A stretch of DNA of 39,508 nt from Modestobacter caceresii (GTDB lineage Bacteria; Actinomycetota; Actinomycetes; Mycobacteriales; Geodermatophilaceae). The stretch lies in contig NZ_JPMX01000052.1 of assembly GCF_000761485.1 (NCBI RefSeq), forward strand, positions 16,252 to 55,759. Reading direction: 5' to 3'. The translations under genes were made by a program, and so were the position numbers. The notes under the pieces are model-generated. The model had not been told where the DNA came from, made no database searches, and saw nothing but the letters and a program-made list of their open reading frames with translations. Below, one piece after another: positions 5,489-20,294 of this stretch. Each line of letters starts with the position of its first letter. Positions within the stretch are counted from its first letter, which is position 1.

Positions 5489-6234
5489 GTGGACGACGCG
5501 CGCCTGGCCGGCCTCCGGCGCTGGAACCTGGCGCTGACGGTGCTGCACGCAGCGCAGGCCATCGCCGCCCTGCTGCTGGCGAGCAGCTTCGCCCTCACCG
5601 TGACGTCGTCGTTCCCGGCCGGTCCCCCCGGGACGGCGGTGCCGGCACCGGAGCCGCTGGTCGACGTCGCGGTGGGCGTGGCGATCGCGCTCTTCCTCGC
5701 GCTGGCCGCGGTGGACCACCTGCTGACCGCCACGGTGCTGCGCCGGCGCTACGAGGGCGACCTGCGCCGTGGCATCAACCGGTTCCGCTGGGTCGAGTAC
5801 TCGGTCAGCTCAACCATCATGGTGCTGCTGATCTGCGCCTACACCGGCACACCGGGCTGAGCGCACTCATCGGCATCGCCGGCGCCAACGTCGCGATGAT
5901 CCTCTTCGGCTGGTTGCAAGAGCTGATGAACCCGCCCGGCCGCACCCGGACGACGATGCTGCCGTTCTGGTTCGGTTGCGTCGCCGGAGCCGCGCCCTGG
6001 GTGGCGATCACCGCCAACGTCCTCGGGGCCGAGCAGCTACCCGGTTTCGTGCTCGGGATCTTCGGATCGCTGTTCGTCTTCTTCATGAGCTTCGCGGTCA
6101 ACCAGTGGCTGCAGTACCGGGAGATCGGCCCGTGGCGCAGCTACGCCTACGGCGAGCGGGGGTACCTGGTGCTGAGCCTGGTCGCCAAGAGCCTGCTCGC
6201 CTGGCAGGTCTTCGCCGGCTCGCTGGCCACCTGA
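5489..6234 (+). pseudogene. Heliorhodopsin gene interrupted by one frameshift
   Basis: Heliorhodopsins are seven-helix retinal proteins with inverted topology and still debated function. The first frame (GTG 5489 to a stop at about 5858) gives the family N-terminus (RRWNLALTVLHAAQAIAALL) and helix 3, FRWVEYSVSSTIM, with the glutamate counterion E103. The next frame continues without a gap: LSALIGIAGANVAMILFGWL, MLPFWFGCVAGAAPW, NQWLQY, and helix 7 LVLSLVAKSLLAWQVFAG, with the retinal lysine at 6187-6189. Compared with heliorhodopsin 48C12 as I remember it, exactly one inserted base near 5848-5856 restores a continuous frame with the right loop length. No other stop occurs, so the lesion is recent, a read error, or a recoding site. 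No good ribosome binding site precedes the GTG. Confidence 0.85.
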
Positions 6235-17029: not shown

Positions 17030-17548
17030 TCAGGCCGACGTGGACAGGCTGCGCACGCTGCTGGTCGTCGTGAGGGCGAGCCGGCGGCTGATCCGCAGCC
17101 CCTGGTCGGCCAGGGCGAACGTCGCCTCGATGACGTCCTCGGGCCGCACCAGCGCCGCCGGCACGATGCCGCGGACGATGGTGGTGATGCTCTGGACGAC
17201 CCCGGCAACGGCGTCCTCGCCACTGGCGGCGGCCTCCTGCAGCTGCCGCCGGGCGCGCTCCTGCTCCTGGTCGCGCAGCTCGGCCAGCAGCCCGGCGCGG
17301 GCCTGCTCGAGCACCCGGTCGACCTGCTGGCGCTCGTCGGTGGAATCGGGGCCGGACGCCACCAGCTCGCCCGCGACCAGCCGCCGGGCACGCTGCGCCA
17401 CGTCCTCGTGGGTCCGGGCCAGCTCCCGGAGCTCGACGTCCGAGCCCGTGGACGCCTCCGGGGCGACCCGCTCCCCCGCCTCGGGTGCAGCGCCGGGCTG
17501 GTCCTTGGTCGCCTGGCTGGACTTCGTCGTGCTCGTCGGTCCGGTCAT
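17030..17548 (-). CDS. Unknown protein with coiled coil and phasin-like C-terminus
   Basis: 172 residues. Residues 1-45 are polar and look disordered (TKSSQATKDQPGAAPEAGER). Residues 45-115 are charged and helical with a coiled-coil look (ERQQVDRVLEQARAGLLAEL). Residues 120-165 form an amphipathic helix region (RPEDVIEATFALADQGLRIS). This arrangement recalls phasins or small surface-coating proteins, but I cannot assign a family. Start ATG 17548 is supported by GGAGGAG at ideal spacing; an upstream ATG at 17575 has no such site. It lies 155 bp downstream of the blh gene on the same strand and may or may not belong to that transcript. Confidence 0.65.
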   Translation of the reverse strand: MTGPTSTTKSSQATKDQPGAAPEAGERVAPEASTGSDVELRELARTHEDVAQRARRLVAGELVASGPDSTDERQQVDRVLEQARAGLLAELRDQEQERARRQLQEAAASGEDAVAGVVQSITTIVRGIVPAALVRPEDVIEATFALADQGLRISRRLALTTTSSVRSLSTSA

Positions 17549-17703
17549 GAGGTGCTCCTCCTGTGCTCGGTCCATCGGGACCCCCAGGCTCGGCTCGGCA
17601 GGTGAACGTCCGGGGGGCCGTGTGGGGACAACCGGCGAGTCCGCTCCGAACTCGGGCGCAGCCCAGGCGTGTCGTCCGGTGTGTCGGCGGCCTGCGCCGG
17701 CGC

Positions 17704-18696
17704 TCAGCCGCCCGCCGACGGGTCCACCCGCACGGGCTGTTGCTGGAGCCTGGCCGGCGACCGCCGGTCGAGCAGCGCCACCACCGCCATGTGCGGGACG
17801 GTGAGGCCGAGGAGGACGGCCAGCGCGCCGGCCGTCCAGTCGGGTCGTTGCGCACCGAGCACGAGGAGTGCGATGCCGGCGAGGGCCACCCCGGTGGGGA
17901 CGGCGGCCGCCGTGGCGTAGCGGAGCAGCGGGGCGCCGAGCCGGCCGGCCGTCAGGTCCGCGCCGTTGCGGGGGTCGAGCACGAGCAGGCGCCCGATGTG
18001 GCGGACGGCGTGCCAGCCACCGAAGTACGCGCCGAAGGCCGCAGCCGGCGGAGCGAGGGTGAACAGCGCGGCCAGCAGGCCGGCCTCGGCCGCCCACCCG
18101 GGCCGGCCGCAGGCCAGCGCAGCGCACACGGTGCCGAGCAGGGCCACAGCGACGACGGCGAGCGCAGCCTGCCGGACGCCGGGTGTGAGCAACCCCGGCA
18201 GCTCCGGTGACAGCGCCGCCAGCACCCGGTCGGCCTCCTCGGGCCACCGGGCGAGCGGGACGGCGATGGGCAGCCCGCCCAGGCCCACGACCGGCGCGAC
18301 GTCCCGCAGCGCGGGCCGCCACGGGGTCCCCGACCGCTCGGCGTCGAACGCCACCTCGCCCATGCCGAAGTGCACCGCGGAGACGACGAACAACAGCAGC
18401 AGGCTCACCACCGGGGTCACGAGGAGGGCGCCCAGCGCGAGGAGCGCCGTGACCGCGTAGCCGACCAGGACGCCCGGGCGCAGCATCCGCTCCGGTCGCC
18501 CGGCCACCCAGTCCGGGACCAGGTGGTCGACCGCACCGTGCGGCAACCCGACCAGCACCCCGACGGCCAGGATGCCCAGCCCCCACGCCGAGACCTGCGC
18601 GGGCAGCAGCACGGCCACCGCGACGACCGCGCCGACGACCCCGACCGACAGCCGGGTCGTCAGCGCGGTCACCCGCAGCGGTGCGCGTGCGGTCAC
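17704..18696 (-). CDS. blh: Brp/Blh beta-carotene 15,15'-dioxygenase
   Basis: 330 residues, polytopic membrane protein. It cleaves beta-carotene into two retinals, the chromophore of the rhodopsins here. Family motifs with the iron-ligand histidines are present: VGLPHGAVDHLVPDW (about residue 53), FVVSAVHFGMGE (about 110), FGAYFGGWHAVRHIGRLL (about 225), and GLTVPHMAVVALLD (about 307). About eight hydrophobic segments. Start GTG 18696 is 16 bp after the stop of the rhodopsin gene, so the two are surely co-transcribed. Beta-carotene synthesis genes are not in the window. Assignment is firm from motifs plus context. Confidence 0.93.
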   Translation of the reverse strand: MTARAPLRVTALTTRLSVGVVGAVVAVAVLLPAQVSAWGLGILAVGVLVGLPHGAVDHLVPDWVAGRPERMLRPGVLVGYAVTALLALGALLVTPVVSLLLLFVVSAVHFGMGEVAFDAERSGTPWRPALRDVAPVVGLGGLPIAVPLARWPEEADRVLAALSPELPGLLTPGVRQAALAVVAVALLGTVCAALACGRPGWAAEAGLLAALFTLAPPAAAFGAYFGGWHAVRHIGRLLVLDPRNGADLTAGRLGAPLLRYATAAAVPTGVALAGIALLVLGAQRPDWTAGALAVLLGLTVPHMAVVALLDRRSPARLQQQPVRVDPSAGG

Positions 18697-18712
18697 GACG
18701 CCGCCCGGCGGA

Positions 18713-19552
18713 TCAGGCAGCCCGACCCGGAGCCGCCACGTCGGTGATGCCGCCGCGGGGCATGGTGACGTCGGAGGCGACGGCCTCGTCGTGGCCCTCG
18801 CGCTTGCTCACCTTCCGGGCGATGACCGCCAGCAGGATGCCGTAGACGACCTTGGAGGTGATGTCGGCGACGGTGTAGGTGATCTGCCGGGCGACCACGC
18901 CGTCGGCGGAGTCCCAGATGGCCGGCATCAGGTAGGCGCCGGGGTAGAGCATCCAGGAGACCAGCAGCAGCCACCACACGGCCTTGACCAGCGGGCGGAC
19001 CTCCGCGGGCAGCCGGCCGACGTTGCCGTACACGGTGCGGTACACCAGCGCCAGGATCACCAGGAAGAACACCGTGCTGATCGATCCCCAGATCCAGAAC
19101 GGCGCGCTGCGCTCGACCTCGTAGAACTGGCCGGCGTAGCCGGTGTAGATCATCCCGAGCCCGGCGACGGTGAAGACGATCCAGCCGCGGCGGAACGCGG
19201 CGCCGGTCACCCCCAGGACGATCAGCATCTGGAGCAGCAGCACCGGCACGTCGATCGTCCAGTTCATGTACCGGTAGCCGTTGGAGAACAGCGTGCCGGT
19301 CTGGCTGAACGCCTCGCCGTCCCAGCTGAAGGCGCTGTCCCACTTCTGGGAGATGACCAGCAGCTCCAGGAACGCCGACAGCATCACGACCGCGGACAGG
19401 GTCGAGGACAGCTGGTACCGGGGCAACGAGTTCTTGCTGGTCAGCAGGAAGTACACCAGGCCGGCCGCCATCGCGGCGTAACCGAGGGTGAAGACGTGGG
19501 ACCCGATGGTGAACTGGAAGAAGTCGTAGCTGAAGGTGTTCTCGACGTTCAC
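18713..19552 (-). CDS. Type-1 rhodopsin of the NDQ class, predicted light-driven sodium pump
   Basis: 279 residues, seven helices. Helix C reads GYRYMNWTIDVPVLLLQMLI, giving R94, N97, D101 and Q108: the N-D-Q triad of sodium pumps such as KR2 (N112, D116, Q123) at identical spacing. Helix G carries D230 and the retinal lysine K234 (YTVADITSKVVYG). Other KR2 landmarks are kept: SWMLYPGAYLMP, E145 in GQFYEVE and R222. Residues that differ: KR2 N61 aligns with S50, G263 with A242, and D102 with T87. The first two tune ion selectivity in KR2 and D102 helps bind sodium at the oligomer interface, so pumping needs testing. GTG start with AGGAG 6 bp upstream. Followed by blh after 16 bp; preceded by a response regulator gene. 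Confidence 0.93.
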   Translation of the reverse strand: MNVENTFSYDFFQFTIGSHVFTLGYAAMAAGLVYFLLTSKNSLPRYQLSSTLSAVVMLSAFLELLVISQKWDSAFSWDGEAFSQTGTLFSNGYRYMNWTIDVPVLLLQMLIVLGVTGAAFRRGWIVFTVAGLGMIYTGYAGQFYEVERSAPFWIWGSISTVFFLVILALVYRTVYGNVGRLPAEVRPLVKAVWWLLLVSWMLYPGAYLMPAIWDSADGVVARQITYTVADITSKVVYGILLAVIARKVSKREGHDEAVASDVTMPRGGITDVAAPGRAA

Positions 19553-19661
19553 GTCGTCTCCTGATCGGGAAGGCGGTGTCGTCGCTCTTCCGTCGTCGGC
19601 GGCACGGCGGATGCAGGCCGACTGCCACGGACCGGGCGCCGAGCCCGCCCGGCGGCGTGCG

Positions 19662-20294
19662 TCAGACGGGCAGGATGCCGCGCTCGTACGCGGCGGCGAC
19701 GGCGGCTGCCCGGTCGGTCACGCCCAGCTTGGTGAACACGTGCACCAGGTGCGTCTTCACCGTGGCCTCGCTGACGAACAGGCTCGCGGCGATCGCCCGG
19801 TTGGGCGTGCCCTGGGCGACCAGCCGCAGGACCGCCACCTCCCGCTCGGTCAGTTCCGTCCCGGACGTGCCGCGCATCCGGGTGACCACCTGCGTGGCCA
19901 CCGCCGGGGACAGCACGGACTCCCCGTCGGCCGCGGCATGGACGGCGGCGACCAGCTGGTCGCGGGGGGCGTCCTTGAGCACGTAGCCGGTGGCCCCGGC
20001 CTCGAGCGCCGCACGGACGTCCCGGGCGGTGGCGAAGGTGGAGAGGACCAGGACCCGCACCGGGTCCTCGCGCAGCGCGACGATCGCGTCCAGCCCGTCG
20101 CCCCGGGGCATCCGCAGGTCCAGCAGCAGGACGTCGGGCCGGAGGGCACGGACCAGGGCGACCGCCGCCACCCCGTCCCCGACCTCGCCGACCACCTCGA
20201 CGTCCGGCACCGCGGCGAGCATGCCGCGCAGACCGTCGCGCACCACCGGGTGGTCGTCGGCCAGCACCACCCGGACGGTGCGCCGCTCAGCCAC
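19662..20294 (-). CDS. NarL/LuxR-family response regulator
   Basis: 210 residues. Receiver: VRVVLADDHPVVRDGLRGML, phospho-acceptor aspartate in VLLLDLRMPRGDG, switch residue in VLVLSTFATARD, and lysine in GYVLKDAPRDQL, all intact. The C-terminal LuxR helix-turn-helix runs from LTEREVAVLRLVAQGTPNRA to SEATVKTHLVHVFTKLGV. It overlaps the upstream kinase gene by 8 bp and is therefore its partner. The rhodopsin gene begins 109 bp downstream on the same strand; read-through or direct regulation of the rhodopsin by this system is possible but unproven. Confidence 0.95.
   Translation of the reverse strand: MAERRTVRVVLADDHPVVRDGLRGMLAAVPDVEVVGEVGDGVAAVALVRALRPDVLLLDLRMPRGDGLDAIVALREDPVRVLVLSTFATARDVRAALEAGATGYVLKDAPRDQLVAAVHAAADGESVLSPAVATQVVTRMRGTSGTELTEREVAVLRLVAQGTPNRAIAASLFVSEATVKTHLVHVFTKLGVTDRAAAVAAAYERGILPV

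Follow-up and report, generated by a model that had tools for sequence, protein, structure and literature searches.

The window analysed here, a stretch of 39,508 nucleotides from Modestobacter caceresii, carries on its minus strand a gene (18713..19552; GTG start, TGA stop) for a rhodopsin of 279 residues that bears the NDQ motif and is very probably a sodium pump of the Subgroup 2 type. The sequence AGGAG at 19558..19562 of the same strand, 5 nt ahead of the GTG codon, is a likely ribosome-binding site. A plus-strand frame of 330 aa overlaps the gene; homology identifies the minus frame as the coding one, and its third-position GC is 0.98, a figure that depends on gene calls made by a rough, composition-based choice. 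The product matches PF01036 (Bac_rhodopsin; E 2.1e-37, 129 bits against a curated cut-off of 24.6) and carries the retinal lysine, Lys234, in helix G, the two features by which a type 1 rhodopsin is recognised. Among solved structures, phmmer retrieved 8jh0 (E 6.4e-69), 8qle with two near-identical chains (1.8e-66 to 9.8e-66) and KR2 (4xtl; 1.6e-63), values so low that the match lies beyond chance. Over 245-257 aligned columns identity is 52% to 8jh0 and 46% to both KR2 and 8qle, which is ErNaR according to the data statement of the paper describing it (PMC11006869). Because identities of 46-52% to solved rhodopsins already fix the fold, a predicted model was left out of fold searches; the prediction, made from 8 aligned sequences, was poor (mean pLDDT 63, pTM 0.53) and adds nothing. 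This is the only type 1 rhodopsin in the source genome. Four named Modestobacter homologues are 92-96% identical to it, and the gene is under purifying selection: in four NG86 comparisons dN/dS was 0.16-0.20 with three copies from Modestobacter and 0.44 with one from Pseudokineococcus.

After a gap of 16 nt the rhodopsin stop codon is followed, on the same strand, by blh (17704..18696), which encodes the beta-carotene 15,15'-dioxygenase of retinal synthesis (PF15461, E 3.8e-42; TIGR03753, 149 bits against a cut-off of 95). The genome also contains, at another place, a match to the lycopene-cyclase family (168 bits, 355 of 380 positions), which counts as weak evidence since this family is matched in 10 of 14 control genomes as well; the retinal pathway is likely to be completely encoded. 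A scan of 17500-19800 confined to sigma-70 type promoters found no promoter-like site, and two overlapping terminator-like matches fell inside blh. On the plus strand, at 5489..6234, lies a heliorhodopsin gene whose frame is disrupted near 5851, its halves (5513-5851 and 5851-6225) being in two frames; the break is either a real disruption or an assembly error.

An earlier note on this DNA had assigned the protein to the NDQ-type sodium pumps from the spacing of six residues and from KR2-like segments along its length, and counting on the alignments confirmed each correspondence. Arg94 (19271..19273, minus strand, as for all residues below) is the equivalent of KR2 R109. The motif comprises Asn97 (19262..19264; KR2 N112), Asp101 (19250..19252; D116), the main counterion, and Gln108 (19229..19231; Q123), while Asp230 (18863..18865; D251) is the second counterion and Lys234 (18851..18853; K255) the retinal-binding lysine. 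Helices B, C and G align to KR2 without gaps, and helix C is not misplaced. With N-D-Q in helix C and the equivalents of R109 and D251 all present, the sequence supports a sodium pump of the NDQ type, and the M. caceresii rhodopsin very probably transports sodium. The equivalents of KR2 H30, S64, S70, E160, R243 and S254 are also retained, the last as Ser233.

A further residue, absent from the list in the earlier note, places the protein more narrowly. The helix B segment LSAVVMLSAFLELL aligns without gaps to ISAVVMVSAALELG of ErNaR, which sets Glu63 (19364..19366) opposite ErNaR E64, at the position of KR2 L74, where it is predicted to serve as an additional Schiff-base counterion (compare PMC11006869). 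It is by this position that Podoliak et al. split 351 NDQ sequences, Subgroup 1 having Leu or Ile and Subgroup 2 having Glu (PMC11006869), and Glu63 puts the M. caceresii protein in the second. That source reports that E64 of ErNaR forms a very short hydrogen bond to the aspartate of the NDQ motif (D105) and keeps it deprotonated; that ErNaR is strongly Na+ selective, with spectrum and pumping nearly insensitive to pH, pumps Na+ even at pH 5 and gives a negligible proton current without Na+; and that the shift of the E64L variant was about double that of KR2, which means that the glutamate is not the sole determinant of this behaviour (PMC11006869). Two members of Subgroup 2 are described there as studied before, SrNaR from Salinarimonas rosea and, thoroughly, ErNaR (PMC11006869).

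The same source gives D102 as absent or replaced in Subgroup 2 (PMC11006869). Thr87 (19292..19294), at the KR2 D102 position, agrees with this, and the loss of Asp102 to which the earlier note had drawn attention is thus a described trait of the subgroup; it does not discriminate, since 11 of 14 rows without the glutamate likewise have no Asp. That note had also taken Ser50 (19403..19405) and Ala242 (18827..18829), correctly placed at the positions of KR2 N61 and G263, as notable changes at the selectivity filter with a hint of a broader cation range. The column counts do not bear this out. They cover 30 NDQ rows, namely the window, three solved structures and 26 loci (with L009, a duplicate of the window, excluded), drawn from a wider rhodopsin alignment that comprised 84 distinct rows from loci in addition to the window and three references; many are close relatives and hence not independent. 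The N61 column holds S 18, T 8, G 2, N 1 and A 1, the sole Asn being that of KR2 itself; the G263 column holds G 16, A 10, T 2 and S 2, so that 14 of 30 rows have no Gly; and the D102 column holds A 11, T 8, D 3, S 3, E 2, M 2 and L 1, with 27 of 30 rows lacking Asp. ErNaR has Ala, Ser and Glu at the three positions. N61 and G263 are said in PMC10572131 to appear conserved in the family; against this, they are not conserved landmarks in the NDQ rhodopsins sampled here, and treating them as such is a tempting misreading that the counts correct. Nor does the protein carry the substitutions of KR2 variants that pump K+ or Cs+, listed in PMC10608830 as N61L/Y/P and G263F/W combinations or S254A: the window has Ser50, Ala242 and Ser233.

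The claim that the sodium site at the oligomer interface is missing fares better. KR2 D102 is replaced by Thr87 and KR2 Y25 by Phe14, and the Y25F change is reported to abolish interface Na+ binding in KR2 (PMC10608830); the D101N variant of IaNaR (equivalent to KR2 D102) is reported in the same source to have retained Na+ binding, so that loss is likely, not certain. A KR2-type interface site is probably absent from the M. caceresii pump.

Glu63 is shared by all 15 actinobacterial sequences of at least 67% identity, the window included: seven from its own genus, two from a second genus (one of them Blastococcus sp. VKM Ac-2987), one from Pseudokineococcus and five from another family of the same order. 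Ten further actinobacterial NDQ rhodopsins, at 38-42% identity, have Leu at this position. Within the genus of the window the NDQ gene is found in 7 of 23 genomes (G000, G089, G091, G100, G101, G102 and G103); the other 16 divide into six with DTE rhodopsins and ten without a match, five of which are only 67-80% complete. Five homologues of 91-96% identity (L001-L005) come from the 11 genomes of PMC10190537, their strains having been isolated from salt crusts of the Kyzylkum and Karakum deserts; that study reports rhodopsin genes in Geodermatophilaceae and does not name the type of rhodopsin (PMC10190537). A literature search whose reach excluded most subscription papers found none pairing 'sodium-pumping rhodopsin' with 'Modestobacter'. 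Rhodopsins of Geodermatophilaceae were reportedly treated by Tarlachkov et al. in 2020.

Several relatives in the wider set depart from the canonical residues. One actinobacterial sequence (L079) has the helix-C motif NTQ, as in chloride pumps, and another (L050) has STQ, from which the ion is not obvious. In seven actinobacterial NDQ rows (L041-L043, L045, L047-L049) the KR2 H30 position holds Thr or Asn and that of P219 holds Ile; mutants of KR2 at these positions are reported to alter pumping, oligomers or colour (PMC10608830). A divergent planctomycete NDQ rhodopsin from Rubripirellula obstinata (L007, 5001-5930) has a long B-C loop, and its residues at the KR2 positions L74, G171 and P219 are Ile, Thr and Gly, respectively.

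Among 15 pump-bearing genomes searched, blh is present in 14, lying directly downstream on the same strand in seven, roughly 1 kb off on the opposite strand in five and elsewhere in two; the exception is G091 (locus L174), where a genome-wide search found the NDQ pump and no blh. Seven other members of the genus were searched for the gene: it occurs in two (G092 and G099), both with DTE rhodopsins, and is absent from the DTE-bearing G086 and from four without a rhodopsin match. In G100 (L171, 9555-14759) 2.6 kb separate an NDQ from a DTE rhodopsin gene; each has a blh of its own behind it, and the two Blh proteins are, respectively, 87% and 36% identical to that of the window. A histidine kinase and response regulator were considered as fixed partners and rejected, since of the 14 other regions with a pump only L170 has the pair beside it; in L180 a regulator is matched briefly and in part, at some 4 kb from the pump.

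Heliorhodopsin is found in exactly the seven of 23 genomes of the genus that have the NDQ pump, with both genes on one contig in every case, and was not found in the six with only DTE rhodopsins. In the other six pump-bearing congeners it is a single open frame, and from about 80 bases to 9.0 kb separate the matched stretches of pump and heliorhodopsin in these, as compared with 12.5 kb in the window. Six of the seven genomes share one region, so that independent events are few; in G091 the surroundings are others, and the two genes converge with about 80 bases between them. The 20-kb pump regions of the two genomes of the second genus, of Pseudokineococcus and of the five other genomes showed no heliorhodopsin, the search there being of those regions only. 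That the two genes co-occur exactly within one genus gives the question of heliorhodopsin function a concrete setting.

As a whole explanation we favour, with a probability of roughly 0.85 and on the strength of these sequence comparisons, an NDQ sodium pump of Subgroup 2 that would work as ErNaR does. Transport, mechanism and pH behaviour are here inferred by homology, as follows. Retinal, supplied through cleavage of beta-carotene by the Blh encoded next door, would be bound to Lys234, and Asp101 would accept the proton of the Schiff base. Ser50, Gln108 and Ala242 would line the cavity by which sodium enters from the cytoplasm; the ion would then pass the Schiff base, be held transiently near Asn97 and Asp230, and leave past Arg94 toward a triad of Glu4, Glu145 and Arg222 (E5, E149 and R234 of ErNaR). 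Glu63, like E64 beside D105 in ErNaR, would carry a proton and form a hydrogen bond to Asp101, and by keeping Asp101 deprotonated at low pH it would make pumping and colour nearly independent of pH and leave little proton pumping when Na+ is absent. The likely use would be light-powered Na+ export and energisation of the membrane. The c subunit of the ATP synthase in this genome lacks the Gln and Glu-Ser/Thr that we take to be the Na+ signature and presumably is of the proton type, so that ATP synthesis would not be powered directly by a Na+ gradient; such a gradient more likely serves Na+ export, the membrane potential and Na+-coupled transport.

Three other readings of the protein have to be weighed against the sodium pump. 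It might have a natively broadened selectivity in which Ser50 and Ala242 of the uptake filter admit K+ or Cs+, given that N61 and G263 line the filter of KR2 and mutants there alter selectivity (PMC10608830), and that some K+ uptake is reported for wild-type NdR2 at high KCl (PMC10572131). Yet small residues are usual in both columns, the sodium pump ErNaR has Ala and Ser there, the K+ and Cs+ variants listed have larger residues (PMC10608830), and Ser233 preserves S254, which together make a broadened range very unlikely. Much the same improbability attaches to a pump that in vivo would chiefly export protons, with Na+ transport as a minor activity: KR2-type pumps are reported to move protons when Na+ is lacking (PMC9728251), whereas the protein has no DTE, the motif of proton pumps and the one carried by the remaining rhodopsins examined in the genus, and the negligible proton current described for ErNaR belongs to a pump with the same third carboxylate (PMC11006869).

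The protein might, instead of pumping, sense light or regulate, for example in concert with the heliorhodopsin or with the two-component genes nearby. The window does have genes for a histidine kinase and a response regulator just upstream, and the co-occurrence with heliorhodopsin points the same way, but all pump residues are retained and this two-component pair adjoins the gene in just 1 of 14 other pump-bearing regions (L170). A sensory role is accordingly rated as highly improbable.

The descent of the actinobacterial Glu63 branch depends on the alignment and on the rows included. When 38 rows were realigned by the program and column 63 was kept, ErNaR joined the actinobacterial branch with support of 90/80; on a fixed alignment (window columns 2-262 without 63) ErNaR stood apart and the actinobacterial branch grouped with KR2, 8jh0 and L110, at 62/41, the two trees thus differing in alignment as well as in the dropped column. 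An AU test on the fixed-alignment set did not reject a single clade of all Glu rows (p 0.44). In a set of 29 NDQ rows, which leaves out the outgroup, L007 and the NTQ and STQ rows, the Glu rows came together at 84/94 without column 63 and 90/96 with it, and the alternative was not rejected (p 0.375 and 0.263); in these trees the long ErNaR branch falls inside the group of Modestobacter, Blastococcus and Pseudokineococcus, which is not credible. ErNaR is the one proteobacterial Glu sequence in the trees, a lone long branch, and one is too few.

Searches for closer relatives of ErNaR added none. Matches occurred in 8 of 398 genomes from the phylum of the Paludibacterium genome G741 (L008), none of them NDQ; in 21 of 299 genomes of the family of G1052, all at 36% identity or below; and in 8 of 149 genomes from the phylum of Rubripirellula (G740), where the two NDQ rows, L110 and that of L007's own genome, both lack Glu63. 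A scan of viral contigs found no relative, and one of plasmids gave three records of at most 31% identity. On these sequences a single origin with ErNaR and convergence of Glu63 would both stand. A bolder proposal joins two elements, that the third carboxylate arose more than once, Glu63 having been gained on a backbone like that of KR2 and 8jh0 independently of ErNaR, and that in Modestobacter the pump and heliorhodopsin were inherited together as a functional light-response pair; we regard it as possible and on balance doubtful.

Set beside the systems already known, the M. caceresii protein is an added member of a recently described type of pump and no new type. With ErNaR (Erythrobacter sp. 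HL-111; PDB 8QLE) it shares the NDQ motif, the Glu at the KR2 L74 position, a short N-terminus bearing the glutamate of the extracellular triad (ErNaR E5, here Glu4) and a residue other than Asp at the D102 position. It differs in having an actinobacterial host, Ser50 and Ala242 in place of A51 and S254, and Ser18 and Thr87 in place of R19 and E91, the last two replacements meaning that its extracellular interface is not like that of ErNaR, just as it departs from that of KR2. KR2 (PDB 4XTL), of Subgroup 1, has in common with it the NDQ motif, the equivalents of R109, D251 and K255 and the retained positions from H30 to S254 named above, and is set apart by L74, N61, G263, D102 and Y25. The closest of the three solved proteins compared is 8JH0 (52%), annotated as 'Xanthorhodopsin', whose D101, R108, D115 and D250 fit the numbering of IaNaR given in PMC10608830; it shares Ser at the N61 position, but has Leu73 at that of L74, as in Subgroup 1, Asp101 at that of D102 and Thr262 at that of G263. 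The literature searched yielded no measured activity for any member of the actinobacterial Glu63 branch, and the behaviour of ErNaR may not carry over to it, as the trees do not firmly join the two. With the same glutamate and another extracellular interface, this branch provides a test of whether one residue suffices for pH-independent, Na+-selective pumping, and of whether the extra glutamate of ErNaR and its actinobacterial counterparts evolved twice.
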